Assembly: GCF_007991655.1 (NCBI RefSeq)
Contig: NZ_BJYT01000008.1
Location: 186,001 to 250,000 of the forward strand
Length of the DNA: 64,000 nucleotides
Origin: Segetibacter aerophilus
GTDB lineage: Bacteria > Bacteroidota > Bacteroidia > Chitinophagales > Chitinophagaceae
Direction of reading: 5' to 3'
The notes beneath the pieces were generated by a model. The model was given only the letters and a program-made list of their open reading frames with translations. It did no database searches and was not told where the DNA came from. Shown piece by piece: positions 1,909-57,181 of this stretch. The stretch's first letter is position 1, and each line of letters opens with the position of its first letter. Made by a program: the position numbers and the translations under genes.

Positions 1909-1963
1909 TGTTTGTCACCGGCTTCAAAACATCTTTCGACATTGTTGTGTCACTCACTTGTAC
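1909..1963 (-). repeat. Dispersed intergenic repeat, copy 1 (A type)
   Basis: Read on the minus strand, it begins GTACAAGTG, then A, then the palindrome GTGACAC, then AACAATG; its tail GCCGGTGACAAACAT ends at the GNAT stop codon. This is one of the best copies for defining both ends of the family, about 55 bases apart. It lies between two genes that both run on the plus strand. Confidence 0.75.
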
Positions 1964-2007
1964 CATTTTTTATTCTTAGTTCTTCTAAGGAAACATAGTC
2001 ATCTGGA

Positions 2008-3021
2008 ATGAAAATAAAGTTTGCTTTAATTGGTTGCGGCAGGATAGCAGAAAGGCATGCAGAACATATAAAAACCTATGGAACATTGGTAGCCGTCTGT
2101 GACGTTGTAAAGGAACGAGCCACCATGTTTGCTGGAAAATATAAGGTAAACGCATACACAGAAATAGACATACTGCTGCAGCATGAAAAAGAGATAGACG
2201 TAGTTGTCGTATGCACACCCAACGGTTTACACGCCTCCCATTCAATAAAAGCTTTACAGGCAGGTTTTCATGTACTATGCGAAAAGCCAATGGCGATAAA
2301 GGTCAAAGATTGTAAAGCGATGATTGCAGCAGCAGAACAGGCGAAACGAAGTTTGTTTGCAATTAAGCAAAACAGGTTTAACCCACCGGTCGTGGCGGTA
2401 AAAGACGCTATCGAAAAAGGAATTTTAGGAAAGATCTATAGCATTCAGCTAAGCTGCTTCTGGAACCGAAACCCTGATTATTACCACAACTCCTGGAAAG
2501 GAACCAAAGAGCTTGACGGCGGCACTTTATTCACCCAGTTCAGTCATTTTATTGACTTGCTATACTGGATGATCGGAGATGTTACACGCGCCTATTGCCT
2601 TACCGCCAACTTTGCCCACAAAGAAATTATAGAGTTCGAAGACACAGGTGTAGTAGCTATTGAATTTGTGAATGGCGCTGTCGGTACGATCAATTATACG
2701 GTAAACAGCTACAATAAAAACATGGAAGGTTCCCTCACTATTTTTGCGGAGAAAGGAACAGTAAAAATAGGAGGGGAGTACCTGAACGAACTGGAATACC
2801 AGAACATTAAAGACTTCGAGTTCAAGAACATTCCTGCCGGTAACAGGGCAAACAATTATGGAACGTACGTTGGCTCCATGTCGAATCATCATAAGGTGTA
2901 TGAGAATTTAATCCAGGTTTTACTACACAACGGCTCAATGTCGGCCAACGCTTTCGAGGGAATGAAGACAGTCGAAATAATAGAGAAAATTTACCAGTCA
3001 TCGAAACAACTAAATAACTAA
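2008..3021 (+). CDS. Gfo/Idh/MocA family oxidoreductase, WlbA-like
   Basis: 337 residues. The N-terminal Rossmann fold has G-C-G-R-I-A-E-R-H (residues 9-17) for NAD(P) binding and the family signature E-K-P at 92-94. A G-G-T-L-F-x-Q-x-x-H-x-x-D-L-L motif near 171-185 carries the His/Asp of the active site. This pattern resembles WlbA/WbpB, which oxidises UDP-N-acetylglucosaminuronic acid at C3 for 2,3-diacetamido uronic acid synthesis. The following hexapeptide acetyltransferase, starting two bases after the stop, would fit the WlbB step; the aminotransferase of that pathway is not in the window. The exact substrate is inference. Confidence 0.78.
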   Translation: MKIKFALIGCGRIAERHAEHIKTYGTLVAVCDVVKERATMFAGKYKVNAYTEIDILLQHEKEIDVVVVCTPNGLHASHSIKALQAGFHVLCEKPMAIKVKDCKAMIAAAEQAKRSLFAIKQNRFNPPVVAVKDAIEKGILGKIYSIQLSCFWNRNPDYYHNSWKGTKELDGGTLFTQFSHFIDLLYWMIGDVTRAYCLTANFAHKEIIEFEDTGVVAIEFVNGAVGTINYTVNSYNKNMEGSLTIFAEKGTVKIGGEYLNELEYQNIKDFEFKNIPAGNRANNYGTYVGSMSNHHKVYENLIQVLLHNGSMSANAFEGMKTVEIIEKIYQSSKQLNN

Positions 3022-3022
3022 G

Positions 3023-3487
3023 GTGGCTGATCCTATTCTTATCTCGTCGGGAATTGTTGATGTTGTCTTTGGGGAGAACGTAAAAGTAGTGACGCCTGTG
3101 AACTTGTACGGTTGCACTGTAGGTTCGAACACTTTTATCGGTCCTTTCGTAGAAATACAAAAAGATGTAACGATAGGTGAACACTGTAAAATTCAAAGCC
3201 ACTCATTTATTTGCGAGCTGGTTACCATAGGTAATGATTGTTTTATTGGCCATGGGGTCATGTTTGTAAACGATCTCTTCTCAACCGGAGCACCGGCCGA
3301 AGGCAAAAGAGAACTTTGGAAGGCAACGACTATTGGAAATCATGTTTCCATCGGAAGCAATACGAGTGTGCTCCCGGTAAGTATTTGCGATCATGTGGTC
3401 ATTGGCGCCGGATCAGTTGTCACAAAAAATATTACCAAACCAGGAATTTATGCCGGTAATCCTGCAAAGCTTATACGAACTATTTAG
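3023..3487 (+). CDS. Hexapeptide-repeat (left-handed beta-helix) acyltransferase, WlbB/WbpD-like
   Basis: 154 residues with repeated hexapeptides ([IV]-G-x-x-x-x) from about residue 30 onward (T-I-G-E-H-C, T-I-G-N-D-C-F-I-G-H-G-V, T-I-G-N-H-V-S-I-G) and a C-terminal A-G-N-P-A-K typical of sugar O/N-acetyltransferases. The GTG start lies one base after the stop of the dehydrogenase gene and no in-frame ATG is near, so the GTG is chosen. Together the two genes suggest oxidation, amination and N-acetylation of a UDP-uronic acid for the surface polysaccharide. Confidence 0.8.
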   Translation: MADPILISSGIVDVVFGENVKVVTPVNLYGCTVGSNTFIGPFVEIQKDVTIGEHCKIQSHSFICELVTIGNDCFIGHGVMFVNDLFSTGAPAEGKRELWKATTIGNHVSIGSNTSVLPVSICDHVVIGAGSVVTKNITKPGIYAGNPAKLIRTI

Positions 3488-3564
3488 GTGTAGGCGTTTT
3501 AGTTAAGGCATTAAAAAGATGCGTACGTCCCCCATATAATTTTCTCAAAACAAGCTCCCCTAAT

Positions 3565-4974
3565 TTGCCCCTTACAGAAACCATTTACCAAAAAAGCCCC
3601 GTTGCAATTCAGAATATATTGATTTCTGCTTTCGGCTATCAATGGAAGAAACGAAGATTCGGGGGCATATTTTCCAAAGAGTATAAAGCAGCAAAAAACA
3701 GGGAAAGCTATACTGTTCAACAGTGGACAGACTATCAGCAAGCCGAACTTCAAAAGTTGCTTTTGCATGCGCAGGCCAAAGTCCCTTTTTATAAGAGTTC
3801 ATTTGATGAGAAAGGAATAACGGCTACTGACATACAAAATCTAGACTTAGGAAGGCTTGAAGATTTGCCGGTTCTAACAAAAGAGCAACTAAGGAAGTTT
3901 TGTACCACGACGCTAATCTCAACTACTAAAGAAAGTAACACTTCCTTTTTTTCATCCAGTGGTAGTACCGGCACTCCTGTTAAAATTTTGTACTCGCATT
4001 CTATGCACCAAAAGTGGTTTAGCATTTTTGAAGCAAGGATAAGAAACTGGGCAGGCGTAAGCAGTTTTATTCCAAGAGGTATGATTGGTGGTCGGCGTAT
4101 TGTGGCTGATGCCTCAAACACTCCTCCCTTTTATAGATACAATTATTTTGAGAAACAGGCCTACTTTTCAGCCTACCATATCAGTTCAGCCAACGCCTCG
4201 AACTACCTTAAAGGAATTGAAAAACACAAGGTAGAATACATGACAGGTTATGCTATGAGCAATTTTTTTCTTGCTCGTTTTTTAATGGAAAATAACATGC
4301 AAGCGCCTGAACTCAAAGCTGTACTTCCTTCTAGTGAAAAACTTAGTCCTGAGATGAGGCAGATGTTTTTAGAAGTGTACAACTGTAAAACTTTTGACAG
4401 TTGGGGAAGCGTTGAAGCCTGCGGAATGGTAAGTGAATGTGAACATGGCAGCCTTCATATAAACCCCGATGCAGGCATCATTGAAATTCTGGACGATGAT
4501 TTAAAACCCGTACCGGATGGAGTTGCAGGAGACGTGTATTGTACAGGGTTGCTGAACTTTGATCAGCCTTTGATTAGGTACAAAATCGGTGATAGAATGA
4601 TCAGGAGCAGTGAGCCTTGTGCTTGTGGACGTAATATGCCGGTGATTAAAGAAATTGTTGGCAGAATTGAAGATGTAGTAATTGGAAGAGATGGCCGGGA
4701 GATAGTACGTTTTCACAGTATATTTTATGGATTGGAAAAAATTAAAAAAGCTCAGGTAATACAGGAAGAGTTAGGACATATTCATATAAAAATTGAGGCA
4801 GAAACTTCACTGACGCAAGAGGAAGAAAATATGATCGCACAAAGAGTAGAAAGTCAGCTGGGAGAAATGGACATATCGATTGAAGAAGTAGTTTCTATTC
4901 CATTAAACAAAAATGGAAAATTCCAGGCAGTAATCTCTAAAGTAAAAAGGCAGGCGCTCAATTCTATTACATGA
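3565..4974 (+). CDS. CapK/PaaK-like adenylate-forming enzyme (phenylacetate-CoA ligase family)
   Basis: About 469 residues from a TTG start. The frame is open a little further upstream but contains no ATG, so the start is uncertain by some codons. The AMP-binding P-loop S-S-S-G-S-T-G-T-P lies near residue 130 and the A-box region S-W-G-S-x-E-A-C-G near 280, followed by the hinge region I-V-G-R-I-E-D. Homologues occur in capsule and O-antigen clusters as CapK-type proteins, where they probably activate an acyl group that decorates a glycan; true phenylacetate metabolism is unlikely in this setting. The role is inferred from context. Confidence 0.75.
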   Translation: MPLTETIYQKSPVAIQNILISAFGYQWKKRRFGGIFSKEYKAAKNRESYTVQQWTDYQQAELQKLLLHAQAKVPFYKSSFDEKGITATDIQNLDLGRLEDLPVLTKEQLRKFCTTTLISTTKESNTSFFSSSGSTGTPVKILYSHSMHQKWFSIFEARIRNWAGVSSFIPRGMIGGRRIVADASNTPPFYRYNYFEKQAYFSAYHISSANASNYLKGIEKHKVEYMTGYAMSNFFLARFLMENNMQAPELKAVLPSSEKLSPEMRQMFLEVYNCKTFDSWGSVEACGMVSECEHGSLHINPDAGIIEILDDDLKPVPDGVAGDVYCTGLLNFDQPLIRYKIGDRMIRSSEPCACGRNMPVIKEIVGRIEDVVIGRDGREIVRFHSIFYGLEKIKKAQVIQEELGHIHIKIEAETSLTQEEENMIAQRVESQLGEMDISIEEVVSIPLNKNGKFQAVISKVKRQALNSIT

Positions 4975-5038
4975 TGATGTCATTGGTTAATTTGTTTTGT
5001 ATACGATATATAAAAAGCCTGATAAAGATGTTACCATT

Positions 5039-5095
5039 GAACGGAGCGTCGCAACGATATTTAATCGAAGAACTGAAGTTGGTAACCAAGAAACT
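5039..5095 (+). repeat. Dispersed intergenic repeat, diverged copy
   Basis: Contains GCGTCGC at 5046-5052 followed by AACGAT, and the tail GTTGGTAACCAAGAAAC at 5078-5094. The head before the palindrome is decayed. Its presence supports reading this stretch as non-coding and placing the glycosyltransferase start at 5111 instead of 4997. Confidence 0.5.
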
Positions 5096-5110
5096 TTGCG
5101 GCTACCAAGC

Positions 5111-6136: not shown

Positions 6137-6240
6137 CCAAATTCTGATCTGTTATACAAACTTTACATCACTATCAATCTGACCCTAACTTGCACGGGTT
6201 CAACGTCGACCAAACTTATAATAATACTTCTCTGTCTCCA

Positions 6241-7251: not shown

Positions 7252-7600
7252 TTGCAGCTATCATCTTTTACTTCTCCTGTTTAAGTCTGCGCTTTCTCCT
7301 GTTACGGCCCTGGCCACGCTCTCCCTCCCAATTTTTTTTACCCAAAATGAGATAGCAAACGCACTGCTTTTGCCTTTTGCTGTCCATCCCTTACCTTTGC
7401 AGCCGATTTAACTAATGCTGTTAGTTTTTCATTTTTAAGTATGTCTACATCTTCTTTTGCTACGATTTGAAGGGAAGTTTGATGGAAGTTTGTTAAAACA
7501 ACTGTAAGAAAATCTAAGAAGCTGGCAGACGTAAGGGAGGTTTAAAGATTTTTAATAATATTTTTTGGTTTTATCGAAATGAAACTTAAAACACGAAAAA
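7252..7600. other. Gene-free 349-base region before atpG
   Basis: No plausible protein gene was seen. The first 120 bases are pyrimidine-rich. A good Bacteroidota promoter sits at 7370-7399, and the 195 bases from the predicted start of transcription to atpG hold a short stem ACTAA-TGCTG-TTAGT (about 7410-7424) and a nine-codon ORF at 7441. A second, poorer TTTTTTG box lies near 7560 just before atpG. Confidence 0.6.
7370..7399 (+). promoter_or_regulatory. Bacteroidota-type promoter, long leader to atpG
   Basis: TTG at 7370-7372, a 19-base spacer and TACCTTTG at 7392-7399 match the consensus TTG-N19-21-TAnnTTTG exactly. Transcription would start near 7405 and leave a leader of about 195 bases before atpG, or give a small RNA. 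Confidence 0.6.
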
Positions 7601-8482: not shown

Positions 8483-8588
8483 ACTTGAAATAAAAGTGGA
8501 TTTTAAATCCTATCCTCATAACTTTTACAACTATAAATAAACTTTAGTCTCATCAAGGGATTTTAGTAACTCCTTTAGGGGTTTCACT

Positions 8589-9437: not shown

Positions 9438-9472
9438 CGTTCTCCAACTCCTCTTTACACCTTTTTTCAAAT

Positions 9473-9480: not shown

Positions 9481-9486
9481 CCCACT

Positions 9487-10701
9487 ATGTCGCTAAAATT
9501 ATCCACTAAACAATTGATTAGTATTGCCAACGAGTTTGGTACTCCCGTGTATGTATATCACGCAGAAAAAATAGAAGAACAATTTAAAAAACTAAAAGAA
9601 GCTTTTAAAAATTCAAATTCTAAATTTTTCTATGCATGTAAAGCACTTACTAATATCAATATTTTAAAGTGGATGAAGCAGATTGGCGCCTCATTGGACT
9701 GCGTAAGTATTAACGAGGTTATGCTTGGTCTAAGAGCAGGTTTTGAGCCAAAAGACATTCTGTTTACGCCTAATTGTGTTGACTTCGAAGAAATTGAAGC
9801 GGGAAAGAATTTAGGGGTAAATCTCAACATTGATAATATTTCTATTCTTGAACAATTCGGAAATAGATACGCTCATTCTTACCCTGTCTGCATTCGGTTG
9901 AACCCGCACATCATGGCCGGTGGAAATTATAAAATTTCAACGGGGCATGTAGATAGCAAGTTCGGTATCTCTATTCACCAGTTGCGTCATATTGAAAGGA
10001 TCGTAAAAACGACTAATCTAAATGTTACCGGTTTGCATATGCACACTGGCAGTGAGATCAAGGACGTAAACGTTTTTATCGAAGGCCTTGAGGTAATGTT
10101 TGAAATAGCGAGACATTTTCAAAATCTTGAATTCATCGATTTAGGTAGCGGCTTCAAAGTTCCTTATCAGCATGATGATCCTGAGACTGATGTCAATCAG
10201 TTGGGTGCTAAAGTTGCTGAAGCGTTTGCTGCATACGAAAAAGAAACGGGAAGAAAACTGCAGATCTGGTTTGAACCGGGCAAATATCTGGTAAGTGAAG
10301 CAGGTTACTTTGTTGTAAAAGCAAATGTTGTTAAGCAGACAACTGCAACTGTCTTTGCCGGTGTTAACAGCGGTTTCAATCACCTGATACGACCAATGTT
10401 TTACGAGGCTTTTCACCGAATCGAGAATATTACAAATCCCAAAGGAGCTGAACGAATTTACACTGTGGTAGGAAATATTTGCGAGACAGATACGTTCGCG
10501 TGGGATCGCAAGCTCAACGAAGTTCGTGAGGGCGACTTTCTTGTATTTTTTAATGCGGGTGCTTACGGATTTGAAATGTCAAGCAATTTCAATTCGCGGT
10601 TGAAGCCAGCCGAAGTCCTGGTAAAAGACGGCGAACCTAAATTAATCAGGAAGCCTGACGTATTCGAGGATCTTCTTAGAAACCAGATAGAGGTTCTATA
10701 G
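9487..10701 (+). CDS. lysA: Diaminopimelate decarboxylase
   Basis: 404 residues from ATG 9487. It is a fold III PLP enzyme: Y-A-C-K-A-L-T-N holds the Schiff-base lysine (about residue 51), H-M-H-T-G-S-E (about 183-189) and G-S-G-F-K-V-P-Y (about 220) bind PLP phosphate, and C-E-T-D-T-F-A-W-D (about 332) gives the catalytic Cys and substrate loop. It converts meso-diaminopimelate to lysine, the last step of lysine synthesis. Related carboxynorspermidine decarboxylases share these motifs; the length and the C-E-T-D motif favour LysA. Confidence 0.88.
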   Translation: MSLKLSTKQLISIANEFGTPVYVYHAEKIEEQFKKLKEAFKNSNSKFFYACKALTNINILKWMKQIGASLDCVSINEVMLGLRAGFEPKDILFTPNCVDFEEIEAGKNLGVNLNIDNISILEQFGNRYAHSYPVCIRLNPHIMAGGNYKISTGHVDSKFGISIHQLRHIERIVKTTNLNVTGLHMHTGSEIKDVNVFIEGLEVMFEIARHFQNLEFIDLGSGFKVPYQHDDPETDVNQLGAKVAEAFAAYEKETGRKLQIWFEPGKYLVSEAGYFVVKANVVKQTTATVFAGVNSGFNHLIRPMFYEAFHRIENITNPKGAERIYTVVGNICETDTFAWDRKLNEVREGDFLVFFNAGAYGFEMSSNFNSRLKPAEVLVKDGEPKLIRKPDVFEDLLRNQIEVL

Positions 10702-10744
10702 GAGAGCAGGCTAAGATAGGTTGCCACCAAGGGCAAAGGGCAGT

Positions 10745-11134
10745 CTATTGTGCTGCCCAATAATCAATTACCAGTACTTTATCAAGATGCGGCGTTAGCA
10801 CATCTACAAATGCTTTGTGCGCGGGATGAGGCAAATACTCTTCACGGTCTTTCTCCGTTTTAAAAGTCACAAAGAAACAATGGGTAAAACCTTGATTAAT
10901 GTTCTCAGGGCTATTGTTTGTGCCCCACTCAAATCCTTTTACAGCTTTTATTTTTGACGGTAGTTGGCGGAAGGCATTTTCTACTTTCTTAATATCAGCA
11001 GCTGTACTTGCATCTTTAAATTTTAGTAATACTACATGTCTTAATAATTTATCCGTCATTTTTTTTGTGTTTTGTGCATGTAAAGTTGATGTAATTGCAA
11101 ACATGACCAGTAAACAAACTAAAGCTTTTTTCAT
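10745..11134 (-). CDS. Exported Dabb-domain (stress-responsive alpha/beta barrel) protein
   Basis: 129 residues. A signal peptide (M-K-K-A-L-V-C-L-L-V-M-F then A-Q at about 20) precedes one Dabb domain: L-R-H-V-V-L-L-K-F-K at about 30, then a helix with V-E-N-A-F-R-Q-L-P and the strand G-F-T-H-C-F-F-V-T-F. Dabb proteins are small dimeric ferredoxin-like barrels; exported versions are frequent in Bacteroidota with no settled function. It converges on lysA with 43 bases between. Confidence 0.82.
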   Translation of the reverse strand: MKKALVCLLVMFAITSTLHAQNTKKMTDKLLRHVVLLKFKDASTAADIKKVENAFRQLPSKIKAVKGFEWGTNNSPENINQGFTHCFFVTFKTEKDREEYLPHPAHKAFVDVLTPHLDKVLVIDYWAAQ

Positions 11135-12153: not shown

Positions 12154-12218
12154 AATGAAAGAAAGAAATGATTGGCGAGATATTAAAAGATAAGAATAGG
12201 GCCGACGTACAGATGTTA

Positions 12219-12277
12219 GTACAAGTGAGTGACACAACGATGTAACAACGAAGATAAAATGCCCGAACACTAATTTT
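12219..12277 (+). repeat. Dispersed intergenic repeat, copy 2 (A type)
   Basis: Full head GTACAAGTG + A + GTGACAC + AACGATG at 12219-12242; tail GCCCGAACACTAATTTT at 12261-12277 is a diverged form of the family tail. Confidence 0.72.
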
Positions 12278-12331
12278 ACTGAAACTGTAAAAAGCACATA
12301 CAAATAGCCAAACTAGCAAGACTGTATACTC

Positions 12332-21351: not shown

Positions 21352-21523
21352 TTAGCTAATTTTTAAAATGATTTAATTGAATGCTTATTGCACAAATATC
21401 AGGCTAACCAAAAGGTGTGGAAGTTAGGGTTGCCTTCAACTACTTCAACAATAGGGGTCTACAAAAGTTGGGTGCAATAACTGTATCGGATTTGAAAACG
21501 CACCTGCTGCTTGTAAATAAACT

Positions 21524-21584
21524 GTACAAGTGTGCGACGCAAGAAAAGATCAATTGAAAAACAAAAGCCTGCTACATAAAAATC
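21524..21584 (+). repeat. Dispersed intergenic repeat (B type)
   Basis: Head GTACAAGTG + T + GCGACGC + AA at 21524-21542; after that it departs from AACGATG and reads AAGAAAAGATC, then a diverged tail GCCTGCTACATAAAAATC to 21584. A GTG at 21530 falls inside the head and opens the peptidase frame, but the real start is downstream. Confidence 0.65.
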
Positions 21585-21610
21585 TCTTTCTTAAATTGCC
21601 GGCTTCAATC

Positions 21611-28427: not shown

Positions 28428-28439
28428 TTCGCGACAACT

Positions 28440-28494
28440 ATCTGTAGACAAGCTTTGGGCTATAAATGACCATTGTTGTGTCACTCACTTGTAC
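28440..28494 (-). repeat. Dispersed intergenic repeat (A type)
   Basis: Minus-strand head at 28471-28494 is complete (GTACAAGTG, A, GTGACAC, AACAATG). The tail is a variant, AAGCTTGTCTACAGAT, most like that of the metG leader copy. It lies between convergent genes. Confidence 0.65.
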
Positions 28495-28520
28495 AGGTAT
28501 TTCTTTGTTCAGCAGGCAGC

Positions 28521-30200: not shown

Positions 30201-30240
30201 CAGCCCTTTGTTATTACGTCTTGTTCCAACTTAATTTATA

Positions 30241-30293
30241 GTAAAAGTGTGCGACGCAACGGTGACGAGGAAAGTTATAAAGCTTAGTACAAA
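30241..30293 (+). repeat. Dispersed intergenic repeat in the metG leader (B type)
   Basis: Head GTAAAAGTG + T + GCGACGC + AACGGTG, then GAAAGTTATAAAG, shared with the copy at 37230, and a tail that ends at the metG ATG. Confidence 0.7.
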
Positions 30294-32534
30294 ATGAATT
30301 TACCTAAAAGATATATGGTCACATCCGCGTTGCCATATGCAAACGGATTAAAACATATCGGACACCTTGCCGGCGCTTACATACCCGCTGATATTTACGT
30401 TCGCTACCTACGAGCGAGGAAAAAAGATGTGGTATATGTCTGTGGAAGTGATGAACATGGCGCTGCGATAACGATACAGGCAATGAAGGAGGGCACAACT
30501 CCTAAAGCGATAGTTGATAAGTATCACGAAATAATGAAGCAAAACTTCCATGACCTCGGGATTAGTTTCGATATTTATCACCGTACTTCTGCGCAAATAC
30601 ACCACGAAACAGCGCAGGAGTTTTTCACCGCTTTGAACGAAAGGGGCGAACTGGAGCAGCAGGAGACAGAACAGTTTTACGATGAGGAAGCAAAATCTTT
30701 TTTAGCAGACAGATACATTGTAGGTACTTGTCCTGTTTGTGGCCACCCTAACGCTTTTGGTGACCAGTGCGAGAAATGCGGCTCTTCTTTAAGTCCTGAA
30801 TTGTTGATTAATCCACGTAGTACTTTAAGTGGCAACGCGCCTGTAAAGCGTACAACTACTCATTGGTATCTTCCGCTGAATAAATATGAAGACTTTTTGC
30901 GTCAATGGATTTTGCAGGAGCATAAAGATGACTGGAAAACAAATGTGCTCGGTCAGTGTAAGAGCTGGTTGGATGCAGGCCTGCAGCCCCGGGCAGTAAC
31001 GCGTGATTTGGATTGGGGTGTGAAAGTTCCGCTAACTGAAGCGGAGGGCAAAGTGCTCTACGTATGGTTTGATGCACCAATTGGTTATATCAGCGCAACC
31101 CGGCAATGGGCGCTCGATAACGGCAAAGAATGGGAGCCTTACTGGTACAATAAGGATACAAAATTGGTTCACTTTATTGGTAAGGATAACATTGTGTTCC
31201 ATAGCATTATTTTTCCTGTAATGCTAAAATTGCATGGAAATGTATTACCGGAAAATGTTCCTGCCAATGAGTTTATGAACCTGGAGGGCGATAAGATGAG
31301 CACCAGCCGTGGCTGGAGTATTGAGATGGACGAGTACATAAACGACTGGATAAAAAAAGATAACGGCGGCGATAGCATGGCCGACGTCTTACGTTATTAC
31401 CTCACAACTATTTCACCGGAAACGAAGGACAGCGAGTTTACATGGAAGGGTTTCCAGGATGCAAGTAATAGCGAGCTGGGAAACATTTTTGGCAACTTTG
31501 TAAACCGGACATTTGTGTTAATGCACAAATTATGTAAAGGGAAAGTACCTCCTTTACATGCAGAGATCTTAGACGATGCAGATCGAAACATGTTTGCAGT
31601 AATTGAAAATGCAAAAGCTACTATTGAAAACTTAATAGAGACTTATAAGTTTAGGGAAGCGTTGTTTGAAGTAATAGATCTGGCCAGAAGAGGCAACAGG
31701 TACATGCAGGATAAGCAGCCGTGGATAGTAGCAAAGCAGTTAGAAGCGGCAAGCCAAAAGCTGCAAGCTGCCAGCGATGAAGAAGAGCGAAAAACATTGC
31801 AGTCGGAGGCCGAGAGCCTGCAGTTCAAGATCGACAATTGCCTGCATGTTTGTTTGCAGCTAACTGCAAATCTTGCAATCCTGGTTAACCCTTTTTTACC
31901 TTTTACCGCTAAAAAGTTGTGTTACATGATGAAAGTGGTAGATAAGATGCTGGATTGGGAAAATGCCGGGAAAGCGAAATTGTTGAGCGTTGGCTACAAC
32001 CTGCGCGAACCGCAAATTTTATTTAGAAAAATAGAAGACTCTGAGATCGCAGCACAAATTGAAAAATTAAAAATAAAAAGTAAAAAAGTGGAAGAAGAAA
32101 AGAAACAAGTTACCGATTCCCAGTTACCTGTAGCGAGTGAAACATCAGGCGAAGCAAGCGGCGGTCAAGCGGAAACAGGAACCGGGGAACTGGTAACTAG
32201 CACAAAAGCTGAAATCGTTTTTGATGATTTTGCAAAAATTGATTTAAAAGTTGGAACCATAGTAAGTGCAGAAAAAGTGCAAAAGGCAGACAAGCTTTTA
32301 AAATTGCAGGTAGACCTGGGCTTTGAAACAAGAACAATTGTTTCAGGGATTGCTATGCACTTTCAACCGGAAGAAATTGTGGGTAAGCAGGTAACAGTTG
32401 TCGTAAATCTTGCACCAAGAAAAATGAGAGGAATTGAAAGCAATGGTATGATCTTAATGGCAGAAGACGCTGCTGGAAATTTGCACTTCATAAATCCTGA
32501 AGAAAAGATAGATGCAGGAAGTAACGTTAGTTAG
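30294..32534 (+). CDS. metG: Methionyl-tRNA synthetase with C-terminal tRNA-binding domain
   Basis: 746 residues. H-I-G-H at 21-24 and K-M-S-T-S near 333-337 form the ATP site; C-P-V-C ... C-E-K-C near 145-162 is the zinc knuckle. After the anticodon-binding helical bundle comes a low-complexity linker (about 590-640) and then an EMAP/Trbp111-like OB fold (D-F-A-K-I-D-L-K-V-G-T-I, V-N-L-A-P-R-K-M-R-G-I-E-S-N-G-M) that binds tRNA and dimerises the enzyme. The linker is encoded by an inverted DNA repeat (32109-32131 with 32175-32197), which is unusual for a housekeeping gene. Confidence 0.97.
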   Translation: MNLPKRYMVTSALPYANGLKHIGHLAGAYIPADIYVRYLRARKKDVVYVCGSDEHGAAITIQAMKEGTTPKAIVDKYHEIMKQNFHDLGISFDIYHRTSAQIHHETAQEFFTALNERGELEQQETEQFYDEEAKSFLADRYIVGTCPVCGHPNAFGDQCEKCGSSLSPELLINPRSTLSGNAPVKRTTTHWYLPLNKYEDFLRQWILQEHKDDWKTNVLGQCKSWLDAGLQPRAVTRDLDWGVKVPLTEAEGKVLYVWFDAPIGYISATRQWALDNGKEWEPYWYNKDTKLVHFIGKDNIVFHSIIFPVMLKLHGNVLPENVPANEFMNLEGDKMSTSRGWSIEMDEYINDWIKKDNGGDSMADVLRYYLTTISPETKDSEFTWKGFQDASNSELGNIFGNFVNRTFVLMHKLCKGKVPPLHAEILDDADRNMFAVIENAKATIENLIETYKFREALFEVIDLARRGNRYMQDKQPWIVAKQLEAASQKLQAASDEEERKTLQSEAESLQFKIDNCLHVCLQLTANLAILVNPFLPFTAKKLCYMMKVVDKMLDWENAGKAKLLSVGYNLREPQILFRKIEDSEIAAQIEKLKIKSKKVEEEKKQVTDSQLPVASETSGEASGGQAETGTGELVTSTKAEIVFDDFAKIDLKVGTIVSAEKVQKADKLLKLQVDLGFETRTIVSGIAMHFQPEEIVGKQVTVVVNLAPRKMRGIESNGMILMAEDAAGNLHFINPEEKIDAGSNVS
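32109..32197. repeat. Inverted repeat inside the metG linker
   Basis: The 23 bases at 32109-32131 (GTTACCGATTCCC, then AGTTACCTGT) match the reverse complement of 32175-32197 at 18 positions. They enclose 43 bases and are translated in frame as a Gln/Ser/Thr/Gly/Glu-rich linker. Confidence 0.6.
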
Positions 32535-35026: not shown

Positions 35027-35083
35027 GATTCTGGTACCGGCAGTCGAACGTATGGCAACATCGTTGCGACGCATTTCGTTCGT
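35027..35083 (-). repeat. Dispersed intergenic repeat, diverged copy
   Basis: Minus strand: palindrome core GCGTCGC (plus-strand GCGACGC at 35066-35072) followed by AACGATG, and the tail CTGCCGGTACCAGAATC (plus 35027-35043). The head before the palindrome is not conserved. Confidence 0.55.
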
Positions 35084-37197: not shown

Positions 37198-37229
37198 CAT
37201 TTCCATTTTCGTTGAAAAAATGTTTTAAA

Positions 37230-37290
37230 GTACAAGTGTGCGACGCAACGATGCAACATGAAAGTTATAAAGGCCGGTAACAAAAAAATC
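37230..37290 (+). repeat. Dispersed intergenic repeat (B type), most complete copy
   Basis: Head GTACAAGTG + T + GCGACGC + AACGATG at 37230-37253, a middle with GAAAGTTATAAAG, and the tail GGCCGGTAACAAAAAAATC, which runs into the left arm of the following terminator. Confidence 0.78.
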
Positions 37291-37336: not shown

Positions 37337-38362
37337 TTAACGTTGAACACGGCCGGAAGCATCTCCTTTTACAAGATCCATTACTTCTTTACGTGTTGCA
37401 TGGTTAAGGTCCCCGGGAATGGTGTGCTTTAACGCAGAAGCTGCCACGCCGAATTCCGCAGCCTGGTTGAGAGGCATATTAGTTACAAGGCCGTAAATAA
37501 AACCACTCGCAAAAGAGTCGCCACTGCCAACGCGGTCAACAATACGAACTTCATATTGCCTTGTGTGGTAGAACTCGTTGCCGTCATACACCAAAGCGCT
37601 CCATCCGTTGTCGGAAGCACTATGGCTTTCGCGCAAAGTGGAGGCAATGTATTTAAAACCAAACTTTTCTTTCATCTGCTGAAAAACGCTCTTATAACCT
37701 TCCAGGTTGAGTTCTCCTTTTGTGATGTCTGTACCTTCTGCTTTAAACCCTAACGTTGTATCAGCATCTTCTTCGTTGCCGATACAAACATCTACATATT
37801 GGCAAAGGTTAGTCATGATTTGACGGGCTTTTTCCTTACTCCATAATTTCTTGCGATAGTTAAGGTCGATACTTGTAGTAATACCTTTTGCTTTCGCAGC
37901 TTTTAAAGCAGCCTCAGTAAGGGCAGCAGATTTATCGCTCAGCGCAGGGGTAATACCTGTTGTGTGAAACCAGTCGGCGCCGTCAAAAATTTTATCCCAG
38001 TCAAATTCACTTGCATCCACTTCGGCTATTGAAGCACCGGCACGGTCATACACCACTTGCGATGCCCGCATTGATGCGCCAGTCTCAAGAAAATAAATAC
38101 CTAGCCTGTCTCCACCGCGAGCTATAAATTGGGTATCGACGCCATATCGACGGAGGTGATTGATGGCTGATTGACCAATAGGATTATCAGGAACTTTAGA
38201 AACAAATACACCGTTCTCACCGTAGTTACAAATGGCAGCAGAAACGTTTGCTTCACCACCACCGTAGGTAACATCAAAAGAGTCGGCTTGAACAAATCTT
38301 TTAAAATCAGGAGTTGACAATCTCAGCATTATTTCTCCAAGTGTCACAACTTTTTTAGGCAT
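37337..38362 (-). CDS. PfkB family sugar kinase, 2-keto-3-deoxygluconate kinase-like (second copy)
   Basis: 341 residues. Y-G-G-G-E-A-N-V-S-A near 33-42 and V-G-S-G-D-S-F-A-S-G near 289-298 are the substrate and ATP-site motifs of ribokinase-fold enzymes. It shares the overall length, the E-x-x-L-R-x-S start and the D-L-N-Y-R-x-x-L-W segment with the kinase at 35182, so the two are paralogues, divergent enough to differ in substrate. It has its own terminator and a likely promoter at 38411. Confidence 0.85.
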   Translation of the reverse strand: MPKKVVTLGEIMLRLSTPDFKRFVQADSFDVTYGGGEANVSAAICNYGENGVFVSKVPDNPIGQSAINHLRRYGVDTQFIARGGDRLGIYFLETGASMRASQVVYDRAGASIAEVDASEFDWDKIFDGADWFHTTGITPALSDKSAALTEAALKAAKAKGITTSIDLNYRKKLWSKEKARQIMTNLCQYVDVCIGNEEDADTTLGFKAEGTDITKGELNLEGYKSVFQQMKEKFGFKYIASTLRESHSASDNGWSALVYDGNEFYHTRQYEVRIVDRVGSGDSFASGFIYGLVTNMPLNQAAEFGVAASALKHTIPGDLNHATRKEVMDLVKGDASGRVQR

Positions 38363-40263: not shown

Positions 40264-40292
40264 TAAATGTACTAAACATCTTAAAAGAACAA
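40264..40292 (-). promoter_or_regulatory. Possible promoter of the exported PAP2 gene
   Basis: Minus strand: TTG (40290-40292), 18 bases, TACATTTA (40264-40271), one base off TAnnTTTG. The TTG is formed by the A-rich tail of the neighbouring dispersed repeat. Confidence 0.38.
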
Positions 40293-40349
40293 TTTTTTTG
40301 ATACCAGCTGCTAAGCTCACTTCAGCATTGTTGTGTCACTCACTTCAAC
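40291..40349 (-). repeat. Dispersed intergenic repeat (A type)
   Basis: Minus-strand head begins GTTGAAGTG (variant), then A, GTGACAC, AACAATG; tail GCTGGTATCAAAAAAATT. Its tail half is close to that of the copy at 45481. Confidence 0.7.
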
Positions 40350-40491
40350 TAATATCGCTAGTTTCAACCTCACAGATTGCTTGACTTTGATTACTCAGAT
40401 TTTAAAAATCGAAACGATGGTTGTTGTAAATGTCAATGCGAGCAATACGATAGGGAAATAGGGTCAAAACATAGAAACATCATAAAACAAA

Positions 40492-42163: not shown

Positions 42164-42221
42164 GATGAACGGATTGCGACGCAAGAATGACGCTATGAAA
42201 AGCTTGCTTGTATTAAAAGAA
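42164..42221 (+). repeat. Dispersed intergenic repeat (C type), left of the identical pair
   Basis: Bases 42164-42201 carry GCGACGC within a 38-base stretch that is identical to the reverse complement of 57144-57181. The part before the palindrome differs from the A and B heads. A tail-like GCTTGTATTAAAAGAAG follows. Confidence 0.75.
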
Positions 42222-45377: not shown

Positions 45378-45689
45378 AACAAAATTTAAAGCGGCAAAGT
45401 AAAAGGAAAGCGGACAACAAAAGTGTTAAAAAGCATTGCCCGCCAAGCTATTTGGCGATTTGTTTTGAGGCATTAAAATGATTTTTTGAAACCAGCCGTC
45501 AACTCATTTCCAAACATTGTTGTGTCACTCACTTGTGCCTCGTTTTACTACTGAGCCAATTACTCTCTAAAAAGCTTCAAACCTTCAAACGCCGCAATGA
45601 AGCGGCAAGAAAAGGCAGCGAAATAAATGTTTGAATTAAAGCGTTATGTATCCCGTCCCTGTAAAACCTGGGCAACTAAATCTAATTAT
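45378..45689. other. Gene-free 312-base region
   Basis: Contains a stem CGCCAA/TTGGCG at 45441-45457, one copy of the dispersed repeat (45481-45538) and a small stem GCCGC/GCGGC near 45590. It lies between divergent genes; no consensus promoter was found for either. Confidence 0.5.
45481..45538 (-). repeat. Dispersed intergenic repeat (A type)
   Basis: Minus-strand head GCACAAGTG, A, GTGACAC, AACAATG; tail GGCTGGTTTCAAAAAAT. Confidence 0.7.
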
Positions 45690-47150: not shown

Positions 47151-47152
47151 AA

Positions 47153-50434: not shown

Positions 50435-50440
50435 GCGAAA

Positions 50441-50491
50441 AAATGAAAGCAACTTAGAGACTTTCCATCACTTTTCTAGTTGCTTTCATTT
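50441..50491. terminator. Bidirectional terminator between convergent genes
   Basis: A perfect 14-base stem, AAATGAAAGCAACT (50441-50454) with AGTTGCTTTCATTT (50478-50491), and a 23-base loop. It separates the low-complexity lipoprotein gene from the methyltransferase gene. Confidence 0.72.
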
Positions 50492-50505
50492 ACTATAAAT
50501 ATCCC

Positions 50506-51243: not shown

Positions 51244-51262
51244 AACATCTGTATAATATAAT

Positions 51263-53629: not shown

Positions 53630-54313
53630 AAAAGTCCCCGTCTTTTCCTTCCTCACAAATCCTTCCATTGTTTGCGCATCTGCTGCCAGGTAATCACCAA
53701 TTCTTGTTCGCCTTAGGCTGCTTAAGTAAGCGCCGCATCCCAACTGCTGGCCGTAATCGTTTGCGAGACTTCTTATATAAGTACCCGTTGTACATACTAC
53801 TTTAAAATACACGACAGGCAGGTCTACTTTTTCTATCGTGAAACTCTTAATAGTAACCGGCCTTGGCTCTAACACCACATCGATGCCCTTTCTTGCCATC
53901 AGGTAAACAGGTTTTCCGGCTTGCTTTATAGCCGAGTGTATGGGAGGCACCTGGAGGATGTCGCCTGTAAAAAAAGCCGTTGCAGCACGCAGTTTTTCTT
54001 CTGTAATCTCACTGATATCTTTTGTCTCTATCGGCTCACTTTCAAGATCATAAGTTGGAGTTATTGCGCCCAGTGTAAACGAACCAGTATACTCCTTTTC
54101 CATCCCCATGTACTCGTTTATCTTCTTGGTAAACTTGCCAGTACAGACAATCAGCAATCCCGTAGCAAGGGGATCAAGCGTGCCTGCATGTCCTACTTTC
54201 TTAATCTTAATGAGCGACCTTATTTTTCTAACCACGTCAAATGAGGTCCAATCAAGAGGTTTATCAATTAGTATAACCTGCCCGGCCTCATACTTATTCA
54301 AATCTTTTTGCAA
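53606..54313 (-). CDS. truB: tRNA pseudouridine(55) synthase TruB
   Basis: 235 residues, the size without a PUA domain. I-D-K-P-L-D-W-T-S-F-D-V-V (about 16-28) and K-V-G-H-A-G-T-L-D-P-L-A-T-G (39-52) give motif I and the catalytic Asp47; P-P-I-H-S-A-I-K-Q-A-G near 130 and G-T-Y-I-R-S-L-A near 187 complete the set. It makes the T-loop pseudouridine in tRNA. Its last 24 bases overlap the 3' end of tamL on the opposite strand. Confidence 0.95.
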   Translation of the reverse strand: MQKDLNKYEAGQVILIDKPLDWTSFDVVRKIRSLIKIKKVGHAGTLDPLATGLLIVCTGKFTKKINEYMGMEKEYTGSFTLGAITPTYDLESEPIETKDISEITEEKLRAATAFFTGDILQVPPIHSAIKQAGKPVYLMARKGIDVVLEPRPVTIKSFTIEKVDLPVVYFKVVCTTGTYIRSLANDYGQQLGCGAYLSSLRRTRIGDYLAADAQTMEGFVRKEKTGTFLEGQPDT

Positions 54314-54640
54314 TGCTTTTTTGGCAAATGTAAATCTTGCTTAATTGGTACAGCAACTACAGTCGTAATTAGAAGATTTGTTGCTGGGTTAAATGGACGG
54401 GAAAATCTTTTTTAGCTATTAAAATAAATTTTGGTCCCGCCACAGGGATTTCTATTGGTCTTAAGTTGCGTCGCACACTTGTACAGCTAAGCATCTTTTC
54501 AGCACACATTTTTCAAAAACCGAAATAAGTCTCAAGAGTAGATGGCGTACCTTATGTTTTATCAAACATTCCCCAAAAGCTTCGGCGGTACTTTCGGCGC
54601 AAAAGTTGAATTAGTTACGTAAACAAAAAATAAATTAAGT
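54314..54640. other. Gene-free 327-base region
   Basis: Holds one copy of the dispersed repeat (54426-54484) and a direct repeat TTCGGCG near 54587 and 54598. It should contain divergent promoters for truB and the HAD gene; no consensus box was found. Confidence 0.5.
54426..54484 (-). repeat. Dispersed intergenic repeat (B type)
   Basis: Minus-strand head GTACAAGTG, T, GCGACGC, AA at 54466-54484; the AACGATG end is replaced by AACTTAAG. Tail GGCGGGACCAAAATTT at 54426-54441. Confidence 0.68.
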
Positions 54641-55255
54641 ATGGGGCACGATAATAACGGCAAGTACGAAAAACTGATGGAGCTAACCAAAGGTGACTAC
54701 AAAGCTTTCTTGTATGACTGCGACGGCACACTTGCCGACAATATGGAAGATCATAAGGAGACTTACGAAAGAGTAGCCTCAGATGGTGGGGTAGAAATTG
54801 ATCCGGGCATAGTGGATGAATTAGCGGGATACCCAACAACTGAAGTGGTAGCCGAAATAAACAAGAGGTATAAAAGCGATTTTAATCCGAAGGAATTTGA
54901 CGCTTCGAAGTCCGAGCTGTTTTACAACGAATTCATCCCTCAAACAAAACCTATTACTCACGTAGTGGACCATTTGAAGGCCAGTGCAGGAAAATACAAA
55001 ATAGCGGTAGTCTCTGGCAGTTCACGGAAAACGATCAAGAAAACATTGGAAGTACTAGGGATAGACTCATTGGTTGATCTTATGGTCTGCTCGGAAGATT
55101 ATGAAAAAGGCAAACCAAATCCAGAGCCTTTTTTAATGGCTGCCGAAAAACTAGGCGTTGAACCTGAAGCATGTATCGTATTTGAAGACGGTGACCCTGG
55201 TGTTCAGGCAGCCGAGGCAGCTGGAATGAAGTCGATAAGAATTGACAAAGTGTAA
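54641..55255 (+). CDS. HAD superfamily phosphatase, beta-phosphoglucomutase-like
   Basis: 204 residues. Motif I is D-C-D-G-T-L (Asp26 nucleophile, Asp28), motif II V-S-G-S-S near 128, motif III Lys in E-K-G-K-P-N-P-E-P, and motif IV F-E-D-G-D-P-G-V near 182. The helical cap lies between motif I and II. These sugar-phosphate phosphatases or mutases are promiscuous; the substrate is not readable. It has its own terminator and no related neighbours. Confidence 0.87.
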   Translation: MGHDNNGKYEKLMELTKGDYKAFLYDCDGTLADNMEDHKETYERVASDGGVEIDPGIVDELAGYPTTEVVAEINKRYKSDFNPKEFDASKSELFYNEFIPQTKPITHVVDHLKASAGKYKIAVVSGSSRKTIKKTLEVLGIDSLVDLMVCSEDYEKGKPNPEPFLMAAEKLGVEPEACIVFEDGDPGVQAAEAAGMKSIRIDKV

Positions 55256-55334
55256 AATGAAATCTTGCGCTGCAACCTATGCTTCTGCTACATCATCTAT
55301 ACAAGTGGTTTTTCATAGAATATTGGATAAAAAC

Positions 55335-55366
55335 AGGGCAGCATTTCTATGCAGCCCTCTTTTTTT
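55335..55366 (+). terminator. Terminator of the HAD gene
   Basis: AGGGCAGCAT (55335-55344) pairs with ATGCAGCCCT (55349-55358) with one A-A mismatch and a 4-base loop, followed by CTTTTTTT. Confidence 0.8.
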
Positions 55367-55514
55367 AAACCAATATTTTTTGAACTCATCTTATAGATGA
55401 AAGTGAGATTAGAGCAAGAAAAATCAGGGAAATTTTAGCAATGCTAATTAGGGAGTAACGAGTTGTGTTTTCGTTACTGGCAGAATACCAGGTAAAAAGG
55501 CTTAAACCTGCAAA

Positions 55515-55790
55515 TCATAAAACCAAGAGAAGACTACTTAAAGCATATATAATCTTACTTGCGTATATGGTCGGAACTTCATTGCGTGTGAAAGTCGCTA
55601 TCACTCTTTTGAATTTGTGCTGAAGGCTCGTCTTTGTTTCTATAAAGAAGTTATCAATCTGAAACAGCTCATATTTTATTACTTTCTTTTCAAATCTCTC
55701 AGAAACTTTTTTTGCGTCAAAAATGGCTGCTTTTTTTTGCTCTTCGTCTAAATCGTTAAATTGTTCAACTGTCATCGTTTCCATTTGCAA
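55515..55790 (-). CDS. Small hypothetical protein
   Basis: 91 residues. M-T-V-E-Q-F-N-D-L-D-E-E-Q-K-K-A-A at 5-21 is a charged helix; the middle Y-E-L-F-Q-I-D-N-F-F-I-E-T-K alternates like a beta hairpin; the end S-K-I-I-Y-A-L-S-S-L-L-L-V-L is hydrophobic. I recall similar small unnamed Bacteroidota proteins that begin with a Q-F-N-x-L segment and contain Y-x-L-Y-Q-L-D-x-F-Y-V-E. No function is known. Isolated gene. Confidence 0.6.
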   Translation of the reverse strand: MQMETMTVEQFNDLDEEQKKAAIFDAKKVSERFEKKVIKYELFQIDNFFIETKTSLQHKFKRVIATFTRNEVPTIYASKIIYALSSLLLVL

Positions 55791-55851
55791 TAGTATTGTT
55801 AAGAATTATGCCAATAAAGCAAACAGAACAAATTTGAATAAAGTGTTATAA

Positions 55852-55910
55852 GTAACAGTGAGTGACACAACGATGTTGAGTAAAGACGTAGAGTCGGGTA
55901 AACAAATCAT
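55852..55910 (+). repeat. Dispersed intergenic repeat (A type)
   Basis: Head GTAACAGTG (variant), A, GTGACAC, AACGATG at 55852-55875; tail GTCGGGTAAACAAATC. It ends 12 bases before the stop of the minus-strand DUF4230 gene. Confidence 0.7.
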
Positions 55911-55921
55911 TCTGTAAAAAA

Positions 55922-56545
55922 TTAAAACACCTCAACATGCTTATACCCAATGTTGTGCAAAAAATTTTCCATAACAATTTTGGCCTTCGCATCTGCCTTA
56001 GTTAATATGTGTTGGTTTAATGCGTGCTCTATCATTTTTCGCCTTGCCTGGGCCTTTACACGAATCACTTCATCATTTGACCATTCTCCTTTTTCAACAA
56101 ACGTTTCAAAATCTGAAGGATTTAAAATAGCATCTAAAATTTGAGCCTTGGGTAACTGAACACGAACAGTATCATTTTTTATGGTAACACCTGAGTCAGA
56201 CAATCGTGTTAGGTCGGTACCGACTAAAATTTTTCCCCGCCCAATTATAACCAGTTGCTTGTCTGCAGACGGAAGAATAGGCACAGGCGTAAACCGATTA
56301 AAGCCGTTGACAAATGCAGAACCTTTTGTTTTTATAGTAGTGTCAGCAACAACCTCGTCAAACGAGGTATACGTAATCAGTTGTCCTATTGACTTTATTT
56401 CTTTTATAAGTATCGGCGTTTGATCGATCGTTATTTGTTTAGAAACAAAAATATTTTTCATAGAAGGGATAACCACCCGTGTGATGAACCAGTAGCAGAT
56501 CAGTAAGAAAATGATTTTTGTAACCAGGGATGCGACCTTTCTCAT
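55922..56545 (-). CDS. DUF4230 domain membrane protein (downstream gene of the pair)
   Basis: 207 residues with an N-terminal membrane helix (I-I-F-L-L-I-C-Y-W-F-I) and an exported domain: I-G-Q-L-I-T-Y-T-S-F-D-E-V-V-A, Q-L-V-I-I-G-R-G-K-I-L-V-G-T-D-L, V-R-V-Q-L-P-K-A-Q-I-L-D-A-I and a C-terminal helix with A-R-R-K-M-I-E-H-A-L. This is the DUF4230 pattern (function unknown, related to the SPFH-like anchor fold in my reading). Its ATG overlaps the stop of the upstream paralogue by four bases. Confidence 0.78.
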   Translation of the reverse strand: MRKVASLVTKIIFLLICYWFITRVVIPSMKNIFVSKQITIDQTPILIKEIKSIGQLITYTSFDEVVADTTIKTKGSAFVNGFNRFTPVPILPSADKQLVIIGRGKILVGTDLTRLSDSGVTIKNDTVRVQLPKAQILDAILNPSDFETFVEKGEWSNDEVIRVKAQARRKMIEHALNQHILTKADAKAKIVMENFLHNIGYKHVEVF

Positions 56546-57108
56546 TGCATAGGATTTTGACGCGTACTTCCATCGTAAGTAATCCGTATGTTGTCATAGC
56601 CCAGTCTCTTTAAAAAGCTCGTTACAAACATCGAAGTATTTACTTTAGCCTGGTTTAGTATTCCCAATGAGTCAATGCTGTTTAGTATCTGCTGTTCAGC
56701 TTGTGCTGCCAGTGCATCCCGGTCTTGCGATTTAAACTTGTCTCTAAACACACTCACCGTTTCGTATTCAGTCTTAATGCCTTCAGCAGGCAAGCTAATA
56801 CTGATAACCTTTGGAGGAGGCAGGGACACTTCAATGTTTTTGCCTGCTATTTTAAAACTGTTTTCATTTATCGCACCCATATCGATGCCTGCTTTTATAT
56901 GTGCCTCACAACTCATCAATATTTTTCGATCGCCTACCTTAAACCATGTTTTATTGTCGCTTGCTTTAATCACTTTCGTCACAGTGTATTCTACCGTTGC
57001 CAGGTCGCTCATTTCTCTTAATGTAAGCACACCCGGCTTCTCATCGGTATTATCCTTTTTAGCACAAGAAACTAAAAACAGTAAAAGTATAAGGATAGTC
57101 TGCTGCAT
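56542..57108 (-). CDS. DUF4230 domain lipoprotein (upstream gene of the pair)
   Basis: 188 residues. Signal peptide with lipobox L-V-S-C (Cys about 15). The same domain as the next gene: L-A-T-V-E-Y-T-V-T-K-V-I, I-L-M-S-C-E-A-H-I-K-A-G-I-D-M, I-E-V-S-L-P-P-P-K-V-I and A-L-A-A-Q-A-E-Q-Q-I-L-N-S-I. A lipoprotein and a membrane-anchored paralogue made from one transcript suggest a complex of the two on the periplasmic side of the envelope. Function unknown. Confidence 0.78.
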   Translation of the reverse strand: MQQTILILLLFLVSCAKKDNTDEKPGVLTLREMSDLATVEYTVTKVIKASDNKTWFKVGDRKILMSCEAHIKAGIDMGAINENSFKIAGKNIEVSLPPPKVISISLPAEGIKTEYETVSVFRDKFKSQDRDALAAQAEQQILNSIDSLGILNQAKVNTSMFVTSFLKRLGYDNIRITYDGSTRQNPMQ

Positions 57109-57119
57109 ATTTTATATTG

Positions 57120-57181
57120 CTATTTTTTTATACCGGCATTTGTTTTTCATAGCGTCATTCTTGCGTCGCAATCCGTTCATC
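57120..57181 (-). repeat. Dispersed intergenic repeat (C type), right of the identical pair
   Basis: 57144-57181 is the perfect inverted match of 42164-42201. Here the family tail ATGCCGGTATAAAAAAATAG is well kept, which ties the C type to the A and B types. Confidence 0.78.

Follow-up and report, generated by a model that had tools for sequence, protein, structure and literature searches.

The window, the whole 64-kb stretch of Segetibacter DNA that was analysed, carries an extragenic element whose copies are listed in Table 1. As the initial annotation had described, all 14 of its copies are present, with seven on each strand and 14/14 between genes called with our own hexamer-based script, not a standard caller. 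Twelve of the 14 reached a profile score of at least 14 bits, whereas 20 third-order Markov surrogates of the window, 1.28 Mb in all, gave no score above 7.9 bits. The profile was built from exact type A and type B copies in 864 kb of the same genome (n = 56), nine of which came from the window, so that part of the window trained the profile. Four window copies belong to a second subfamily, headed GAACG, whose pattern matched 15 times in the 864 kb. The profile was not trained on this subfamily, and the two lowest scores in the window (35027 and 42176) are both GAACG copies. In the element at 37207..37290, the A-run of the tail doubles as the T-run of a terminator-like hairpin that belongs to the facing gene 37337-38362.

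Table 1. Copies of the element in the 64-kb window and their profile scores.
Position	Strand	Core or subfamily	Score (bits)	Remarks
1907..1974	-	type A (AAGTGAGTGACACAA)	45.4	tail adjoins stop of gene 1474-1908
5048..5095	+	GAACG (GAACGGAGCGTCGCAACGAT)	14.2	
12198..12281	+	type A	45.4	
21504..21589	+	type B (AAGTGTGCGACGCAA)	38.5	same place in G198
28437..28513	-	type A	45.1	converging genes either side; same place in G198
30221..30305	+	type B	41.6	leader of metG-like gene at 30294; same place in six Segetibacter genomes
35027..35068	-	GAACG (GAACGAAATGCGTCGCAACGATG)	9.5	weak with profile; G198 has GCGACGC
37207..37290	+	type B	50.5	
40285..40366	-	type A	42.7	G198 counterpart not found
42176..42201	+	GAACG (GAACGGATTGCGACGCAAGAATG)	6.0	weak with profile
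45473..45559	-	type A	46.7	diverging genes either side
54418..54503	-	type B	32.3	
55834..55917	+	CAGTGAGTGACACAA (type A, one change)	37.0	
57116..57170	-	GAACG (GAACGGATTGCGACGCAAGAATG)	17.1	

The sequence is indeed a repeat, but the size first given, 55-65 bp, was too small: the unit is nearer 80 bp, its information spanning roughly -23 to +52 relative to the core. It consists of a loose head, a sharp core of about 20 bp, GTACAAGNGWGYGACRCAAC, and the tail GCYGGNNACAAAAA, which often adjoins a stop codon. The earlier picture of conserved ends around a variable middle was not borne out, since constraint is strongest at the centre of the core, with only loose conservation in head and tail. 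Within the core, Y and R covary (409/417), and the tetramer GTAC is constant and precedes AAG. Among type A cores of the closed genome G141, 85 were exact, 7 had one mismatch and 3 had two, a sharpness judged against a simple null. Consensus folds of the single unit, made from 149 and from 67 copies, gave three pairs and no conserved secondary structure beyond them. In three genomes, the tail lay at most 20 bp from a facing stop codon in 22/62, 66/138 and 60/112 cases. A coding origin was dropped by eye, the free letter falling on the second codon position and stops being common.

Copy number across the genome exceeds that of the reversed pattern: the Segetibacter genome itself holds 573 exact AAGNGWGYGACRCAA cores and 295 exact AAGTGWGYGACRCAA cores, against none of the reversed pattern in either case. 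The intergenic placement seen in the window also holds more widely, with 102/104 profile matches between genes in this genome, 203/206 in G141 and 219/221 in G149. G141 has 1,377 narrow cores; of its 300 spaces measuring 60 bp or more, 182 contain an element, as do 36 of the 45 spaces of 200-249 bp. One relative has 1,558 copies of the narrower core. Within the Bacteroidota sample the element was abundant in Chitinophagaceae only, and it is patchy in that family, the narrow core being found in 97/195 of the genomes sampled. On C1 of the Segetibacter genome, a 62-kb stretch rich in glycosyltransferase genes has no element. In a viral collection, 29 stretches contain the extended core.

The sister species carries elements at the same places and in the same orientation. 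Intergenic spaces with elements numbered 20 in both Segetibacter genomes, 3 in our genome only and 9 in the sister only, and these counts are less biased than the column identities, which were taken only from loci with a profile match in both genomes and so favour conserved cores. In such shared copies the core centre was 0.86-1.00 identical and the flanks 0.61-0.76. Among the listed loci with an element in one genome only, several have a copy in the other that is broken or scores below threshold. As to a possible MITE, which would have terminal inverted repeats and a target duplication, the doublets are inverted repeats, and neither clean empty sites nor target duplications were seen in relatives at the divergence available. 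Since spaces without elements are about as diverged (0.66 identity between the two genomes), a special process of "rewriting" heads at orthologous loci was dropped. The retention of cores at orthologous sites points to a site that is kept.

Copies less than 250 bp apart formed inverted, hairpin-capable doublets. The heads faced inwards rather than the tails at ratios of 7:2 in the Segetibacter genome, 63:5 in G141 and 45:3 in G149, and no head-to-tail pair was found at this distance in the three genomes counted. Looking for an autonomous copy gave 60 heads-in intervals of 250-3,500 bp. Doublets at scattered loci have alike core-to-core sequence and one of three spacer families. A set of 121 doublets behind this comparison includes loci chosen for their likeness to three query doublets. 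This likeness at scattered loci argues for past spread as DNA. The proposal of a mobile unit or a bound site thus finds signs of both, the inverted doublets speaking for past spread and the kept core for a kept site. Doublets comprised 14/127 units in the Segetibacter genome, 126/254 in G141 and 90/221 in G149. Intact cores were found in 84/113, 120/128 and 103/131 single copies and in 9/14, 117/126 and 71/90 doublet halves, respectively. Per kb, G141 favoured converging and co-directional spaces over diverging ones, and densities in G149 were 3.7 (converging), 2.9 (co-directional) and 1.5 (diverging); in the Segetibacter genome, converging equalled co-directional and diverging was lower. A reading of the core types as left and right ends fitted G141 (of 63 doublets, A-A 0 and F-F 1) but failed in G149. 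Likewise, avoidance of near-perfect palindromes was suggested in G141 (4 against 11.5 expected; 3/2,000 shuffles as low, under a simple null) but was absent in G149, and was set aside.

REPs are palindromes of 20-40 bp. The element shares with them an extragenic location and high copy number, together with the placement favoured in G141 and G149, and with REPINs the arrangement of close copies as inverted doublets. According to PMC3733652, the GTAG REPs and BIMEs of Proteobacteria are likewise extragenic, number hundreds to thousands of copies, often pair two types in close inversion, favour co-directional and converging spaces, and lie within 20 bp of stop codons. Unlike them, our element lacks a GTAG (or GTGG-like) tag, its unit contains no stem of 5-13 bp, no Y1/RAYT association was found, and its core is kept at orthologous sites. 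REPINs, according to PMC3116915, are also inverted doublets; their spacer allows folding into a single hairpin, and they have sequence in common between loci. That model holds doublets to be mobile and singlets to decay, with 61% of REPs in doublets and singlets more diverged, whereas singles of the present element were not more decayed than doublet halves in any of the three genomes. The CGTC REPs, such as dRS3 of Neisseria, have no known dedicated transposase, form head-to-head pairs and are reported from some Bacteroidetes (PMC3733652). The reversed core of our element contains CGTC (types B and F) or TGTC (type A), but inside the small palindrome GCGTCGC or GTGTCAC, whereas in the CGTC REPs this tag is unpaired and precedes an 8-9 bp stem whose first two pairs have A/T; our element lacks such a stem, the 4-5 bp loop and the CCA tail (same source).

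Taken together, the element is probably a lineage-specific REP/BIME-like extragenic family, to which we give a probability of roughly 0.58. Against this stand the single unit, whose consensus fold conserves no stem other than the three pairs, singles as intact as doublet halves, contrary to the REPIN model, the Segetibacter genome with only 14/127 units in doublets and no excess of converging over co-directional pairs, and the clean empty sites, target duplications and Y1/RAYT association that were not found. The sharp core, its retention at orthologous sites while the surroundings diverge, and the occupation of most sufficiently long spaces in rich genomes would also suit a site used by the host, the candidate binder being a sequence-specific protein of Chitinophagaceae that acts on the nucleoid, on supercoiling or at transcription-unit boundaries, and mobility being long past or absent. 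Evenness of spacing exceeded chance in G141 and in C79 of G149 (0/1,000 each), but not in C1 of the Segetibacter genome (808/1,000) or C98 of G149 (231/1,000), and operon structure may explain what evenness remains. Half of the sampled family genomes are without the narrow core, so Chitinophagaceae do not need it, and the strict Y-R pairing fits a self-pairing strand more naturally than a dimer site. We regard the host-used site as unlikely. Copy number and a sharp core recall the DNA uptake sequences of Haemophilus and Neisseria, which have thousands of copies. If the element were such a putative sequence, competent cells would favour core-bearing fragments, and biased uptake would keep copies intact; the rapid change of the flanks, the use of both orientations, the uneven distribution within the family and the absence from the glycosyltransferase-rich stretch agree with this. 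The element is, however, much longer and nearly excluded from genes, and we know of no short uptake sequence with an 80-bp head/tail unit, spacer-sharing doublets, gene exclusion or Y-R pairing. Among the papers listed in the literature searched, none treats an intergenic Bacteroidetes uptake sequence of this kind. We hold this explanation to be very improbable.

The suggested link to a RAYT transposase was not found. Y1 (PF01797) was matched in 24/33 genomes that have 20 or more narrow cores and in 119/162 others; the copy-rich G141 is absent from the 143 genomes so matched. No element lay within 300 bp of any of 20 Y1 loci. Element-rich genomes supplied 12 of these loci; the other 8, which test little, are from genomes having 0-10 narrow cores. 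On genome-level presence and these loci, a Y1/RAYT mobiliser was rejected as the link. REPINs like those of Pseudomonas, which a Y1 (RAYT/TnpA_REP) transposase mobilises, would account for inverted, extragenic, hairpin-capable doublets, and a Bacteroidetes subclass of Y1-type genes is reported to have atypical flanking structures with copies elsewhere (PMC6006769). With no GTAG tag and singles that are not decayed, this reading is nevertheless disfavoured and has little probability. A structured RNA or cis-regulatory leader or trailer element would fit the Y-R covariation, the position in metG leaders at 13/80 named loci with an intact core, and five further metG loci where the centre is apparently replaced by a longer hairpin-like insert. 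Between co-directional genes, however, the two orientations are about equal (31 vs 38, 62 vs 69), no further pairs are conserved, and of the folds of the metG variants one beats 200/200 shuffles and the others all but 6, 11, 22 and 43. A search with one of these extended-hairpin variants (L163) in five genomes gave no multi-copy family and, the folds being mixed, they were not retained as one. No Rfam match reached the gathering score in nine loci. The window gave six matches at E values up to 5, all below gathering, and none overlapped an element convincingly; a weak one at 54355-54435 grazes the element at 54418. No known RNA family was found in these loci or the window. The RNA explanation is most improbable. 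As had been stated, no named family was found: six core 15-mers were absent from the literature searched, no describing paper was found there, and the element is apparently unnamed.

For the REP/BIME-like family, the best reading is that it once spread as inverted doublets and that selection or homogenisation now maintains its cores. The family would first have spread as DNA, the likeliest form being a doublet that folds into an imperfect hairpin when single-stranded, and may have landed in A/T-runs beside stop codons and terminators. Singles and doublets would afterwards keep their cores in place because GTACAAGNGWGYGNCRCAAC with a matching centre is needed, either by a host protein or for the element's own upkeep. 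A further reading is offered tentatively, as rather doubtful in its entirety: extragenic sites in their hundreds to thousands, kept at orthologous positions, with a self-pairing core centre under selection and marking the majority of transcription-unit boundaries where copies are many, would serve a putative Chitinophagaceae factor, with core-to-core cassettes swapped between resident sites and tails bound to their loci.

What is understood of REP-like families comes mostly from Proteobacteria and from RAYT transposases. A large Bacteroidota family with no visible Y1 link, intact singles and cores that outlast their flanks offers a natural test between selfish remnants and host-used sites. In copy-rich genomes the element fills a large share of the intergenic DNA, which matters when promoters, terminators and leaders are read.

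The element, an extragenic unit of about 80 bp, was found at all 14 places in the window where the initial annotation had recorded it, both by direct reading and by rescoring with a profile. As had been described, the copies lie between called genes (14/14) and occur in both orientations, seven on each strand. The profile was built from exact type A and B copies in 864 kb of the S. aerophilus genome (n=56, 9 of these in the window); 12 of the 14 window copies scored at least 14 bits, and the best score in 20 surrogates of the window was 7.9. A second subfamily accounts for four of the copies (Table). The source genome (G000; 5.89 Mb, 79 contigs, with the window at C8:186001-250000) carries 295 exact copies of AAGTGWGYGACRCAA and 573 of AAGNGWGYGACRCAA, and neither sequence occurs in it when reversed.

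Relative to the core, information content is spread over positions of about -23 to +52. The unit consists of a loose head (G.TGAATAA or similar), GTACAAG, a free letter, G, W and a small palindrome, G-Y-G-W-C-R-C, followed by AAC, a variable stretch and the tail GCYGG..ACAAAAA. Few core types exist, namely A (AAGTGAGTGACACAA), B (AAGTGTGCGACGCAA), F (AAGAGTGCGACGCAA) and some rarer ones, and Y and R form a matching pair, T-A or C-G, in 409 of the 417 cores sampled for this count. In 500 kb of G141, a copy-rich Chitinophagaceae genome, type A is sharp, with 85 exact, 7 one-mismatch and 3 two-mismatch cores; the fall-off is slower in S. aerophilus (39, 21 and 13).

The intergenic placement held beyond the window, with 102 of 104 profile matches between genes in the 864 kb of S. 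aerophilus, 203 of 206 in the 500 kb of G141 (E up to 1e-3 for both) and 219 of 221 in 460 kb of G149, a second copy-rich genome (E cut-off 0.5). Where a tail faces a stop codon, the distance is at most 20 bp in 22/62, 66/138 and 60/112 cases in S. aerophilus, G141 and G149, respectively, against 6/55, 16/134 and 6/112 for heads. In some cases the facing gene has a terminator-like hairpin, the T-run of which is formed by the tail A-run. Most sufficiently long spaces of the copy-rich genomes are occupied; in G141, for example, an element stands in 36 of the 45 that measure 200-249 bp. Compared with spaces drawn at random, the elements were more evenly spaced in G141 and on contig C79 of G149 (0 of 1,000), but not on C1 of S. 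aerophilus (808 of 1,000) or C98 of G149 (231 of 1,000). Operon structure may be the source of the even spacing.

Table. Locations of individual copies and of related features
Location	Feature	Observation
Window 5048, 35027, 42176, 57116	Second subfamily	Head GAACG, not GTACAAG
Window 37207-37290	Tail A-run shared with hairpin	Example
G000:C1:100540-162939 (S. aerophilus, L036-L039)	Element-free 62 kb, longest gap of C1	GC 0.387 vs 0.405; glycosyltransferase family 1 model matches in 7/10 proteins tested, as in a polysaccharide gene cluster
G000:C1:732657	Joint change of Y and R	
G000:C1:769284	Joint change of Y and R	Alignment poor
G198:C90, opposite G000:C1:769284-769381 (GAACG-type core)	GAACG head, ~70 extra bases, GTACAAG-type core	Tail of GTACAAG-type unit at same place as in S. 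aerophilus; possibly one unit inserted into another
L091:5951-6131, 2549-2760, 10627-10855 (G141)	Doublet spacers	Examples
G141:C1:249687-297471 (from L106 on)	Tandem array of 18 like-sized genes, ~2.4 kb, one strand	One gene tested is a MacB/FtsX-type permease; compact 62-64 bp doublet in 12 spacers

Conservation was assessed against Segetibacter sp. RYN_277 (G198), whose aligned parts share 74-88% identity with the window. The two genomes have 88 adjacent gene pairs in common; 20 of the intervening spaces hold elements in both species, without exception in matching orientation, 3 hold them only in S. aerophilus and 9 only in G198. The partner genome has a broken or sub-threshold copy in at least 1 of the 3 and at least 3 of the 9. 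In 21 aligned copies, identity was 0.90 for GTACAA, 0.86-1.00 for the centre GYGACRCAA and 0.48 for the free letter. Outside the core it was 0.61-0.63 for the head, 0.64 for the stretch before the tail, 0.73 for the tail and 0.64-0.76 for the flanks; the mean over 36 element-free spaces was 0.66. GYGACRCAA was retained in 20 of the 21, the remaining one being lost or misaligned, and none of these 20 showed a one-sided change of Y or R; joint changes are listed in the Table. Lone units are as intact as halves of doublets (intact cores in 84/113 vs 9/14 in S. aerophilus, 120/128 vs 117/126 in G141 and 103/131 vs 71/90 in G149), which points to selection on the core at individual sites, or to its homogenisation there.

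Units less than 250 bp apart mostly face each other heads-in rather than tails-in (7 vs 2 in S. aerophilus, 63 vs 5 in G141, 45 vs 3 in G149), and no head-to-tail pairs were found in these genomes. G141 doublets at scattered loci have the core-to-core stretch in common and the tails hardly so. The G141 spacers between two heads contain three families of short self-complementary repeats, rich in GTCGAC, AGCTAAAAGC or GTGAAAAG. Among 121 doublets from G141 and G149, identity in the 506 related pairs was 0.79 from core to core and 0.644 (sd 0.047) in the tails; in 2,942 less related pairs the tails reached 0.629 (sd 0.042). The G141 tandem array contains many of the closest pairs, and there gene duplication and tail decay are enough to account for the likeness. 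Elsewhere, the pattern reflects either copying of the core-to-core piece into resident sites or decay of the tails with the inner part retained. The G141 doublets join different core types (A+A 0 and F+F 1 of 63), and near-perfect arms are depleted (4 vs 11.5 by chance; 3 of 2,000 shuffles as low), an effect absent from G149. Di Nocera and others suggested that hetero-pairs are spared the deletion that hits long perfect hairpins (PMC3733652).

The link to a RAYT transposase raised by the initial annotation was not borne out. The Y1 transposase domain (PF01797) matches in 143 of 195 Chitinophagaceae genomes, G141 not among them, and is as frequent where 20 or more narrow cores are present (24/33) as in the other genomes (119/162; both ~73%). 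No element lay within 300 bp of any of 20 Y1 loci, of which 12 come from element-rich genomes and the other 8 test little; the shortest distance was 324 bp, in G149. The extended core also occurs in 29 stretches of a viral collection (L241-L269, viral_contigs), which may be host flanks of proviruses or copies in phages proper.

Each of the six Segetibacter genomes compared has a unit before metG; the cores of these units are of types B, A and F, among others. At a seventh Segetibacter locus (L141) the core is broken. An intact core lies no more than 150 bp from the metG start at 13 of 80 named loci from Chitinophagaceae and relatives, four of the 13 being from Segetibacter. In leaders L142, L143, L156, L163 and L194, head and tail are present and a longer hairpin-like insert apparently replaces the core centre; of the leader variants, L156 alone out-folds all 200 shuffles.

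The element resembles a REP/BIME family in placement, pairing and abundance, but tested features defining GTAG REPs, CGTC REPs and REPINs are missing from it. The initial annotation knew of no named family with this sequence; in the open-licence literature, titles and abstract starts yielded no description of it for six core 15-mers or for Bacteroidetes, Chitinophaga or Chitinophagaceae repeats. The narrower core is present in 97 of 195 Chitinophagaceae genomes, with up to 1,558 copies (G149) and 1,377 in the single-contig G141. In a sample of 395 Bacteroidota genomes, the element matched in 9 of the 14 Chitinophagaceae and in 22 of the other 381, there with at most two matches each. The reversed control gave about as many matches in these 381, so that within the sampled Bacteroidota only the Chitinophagaceae carry the element in abundance. 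It is classed as an extragenic repeat that probably spread as DNA and is now kept at its sites.
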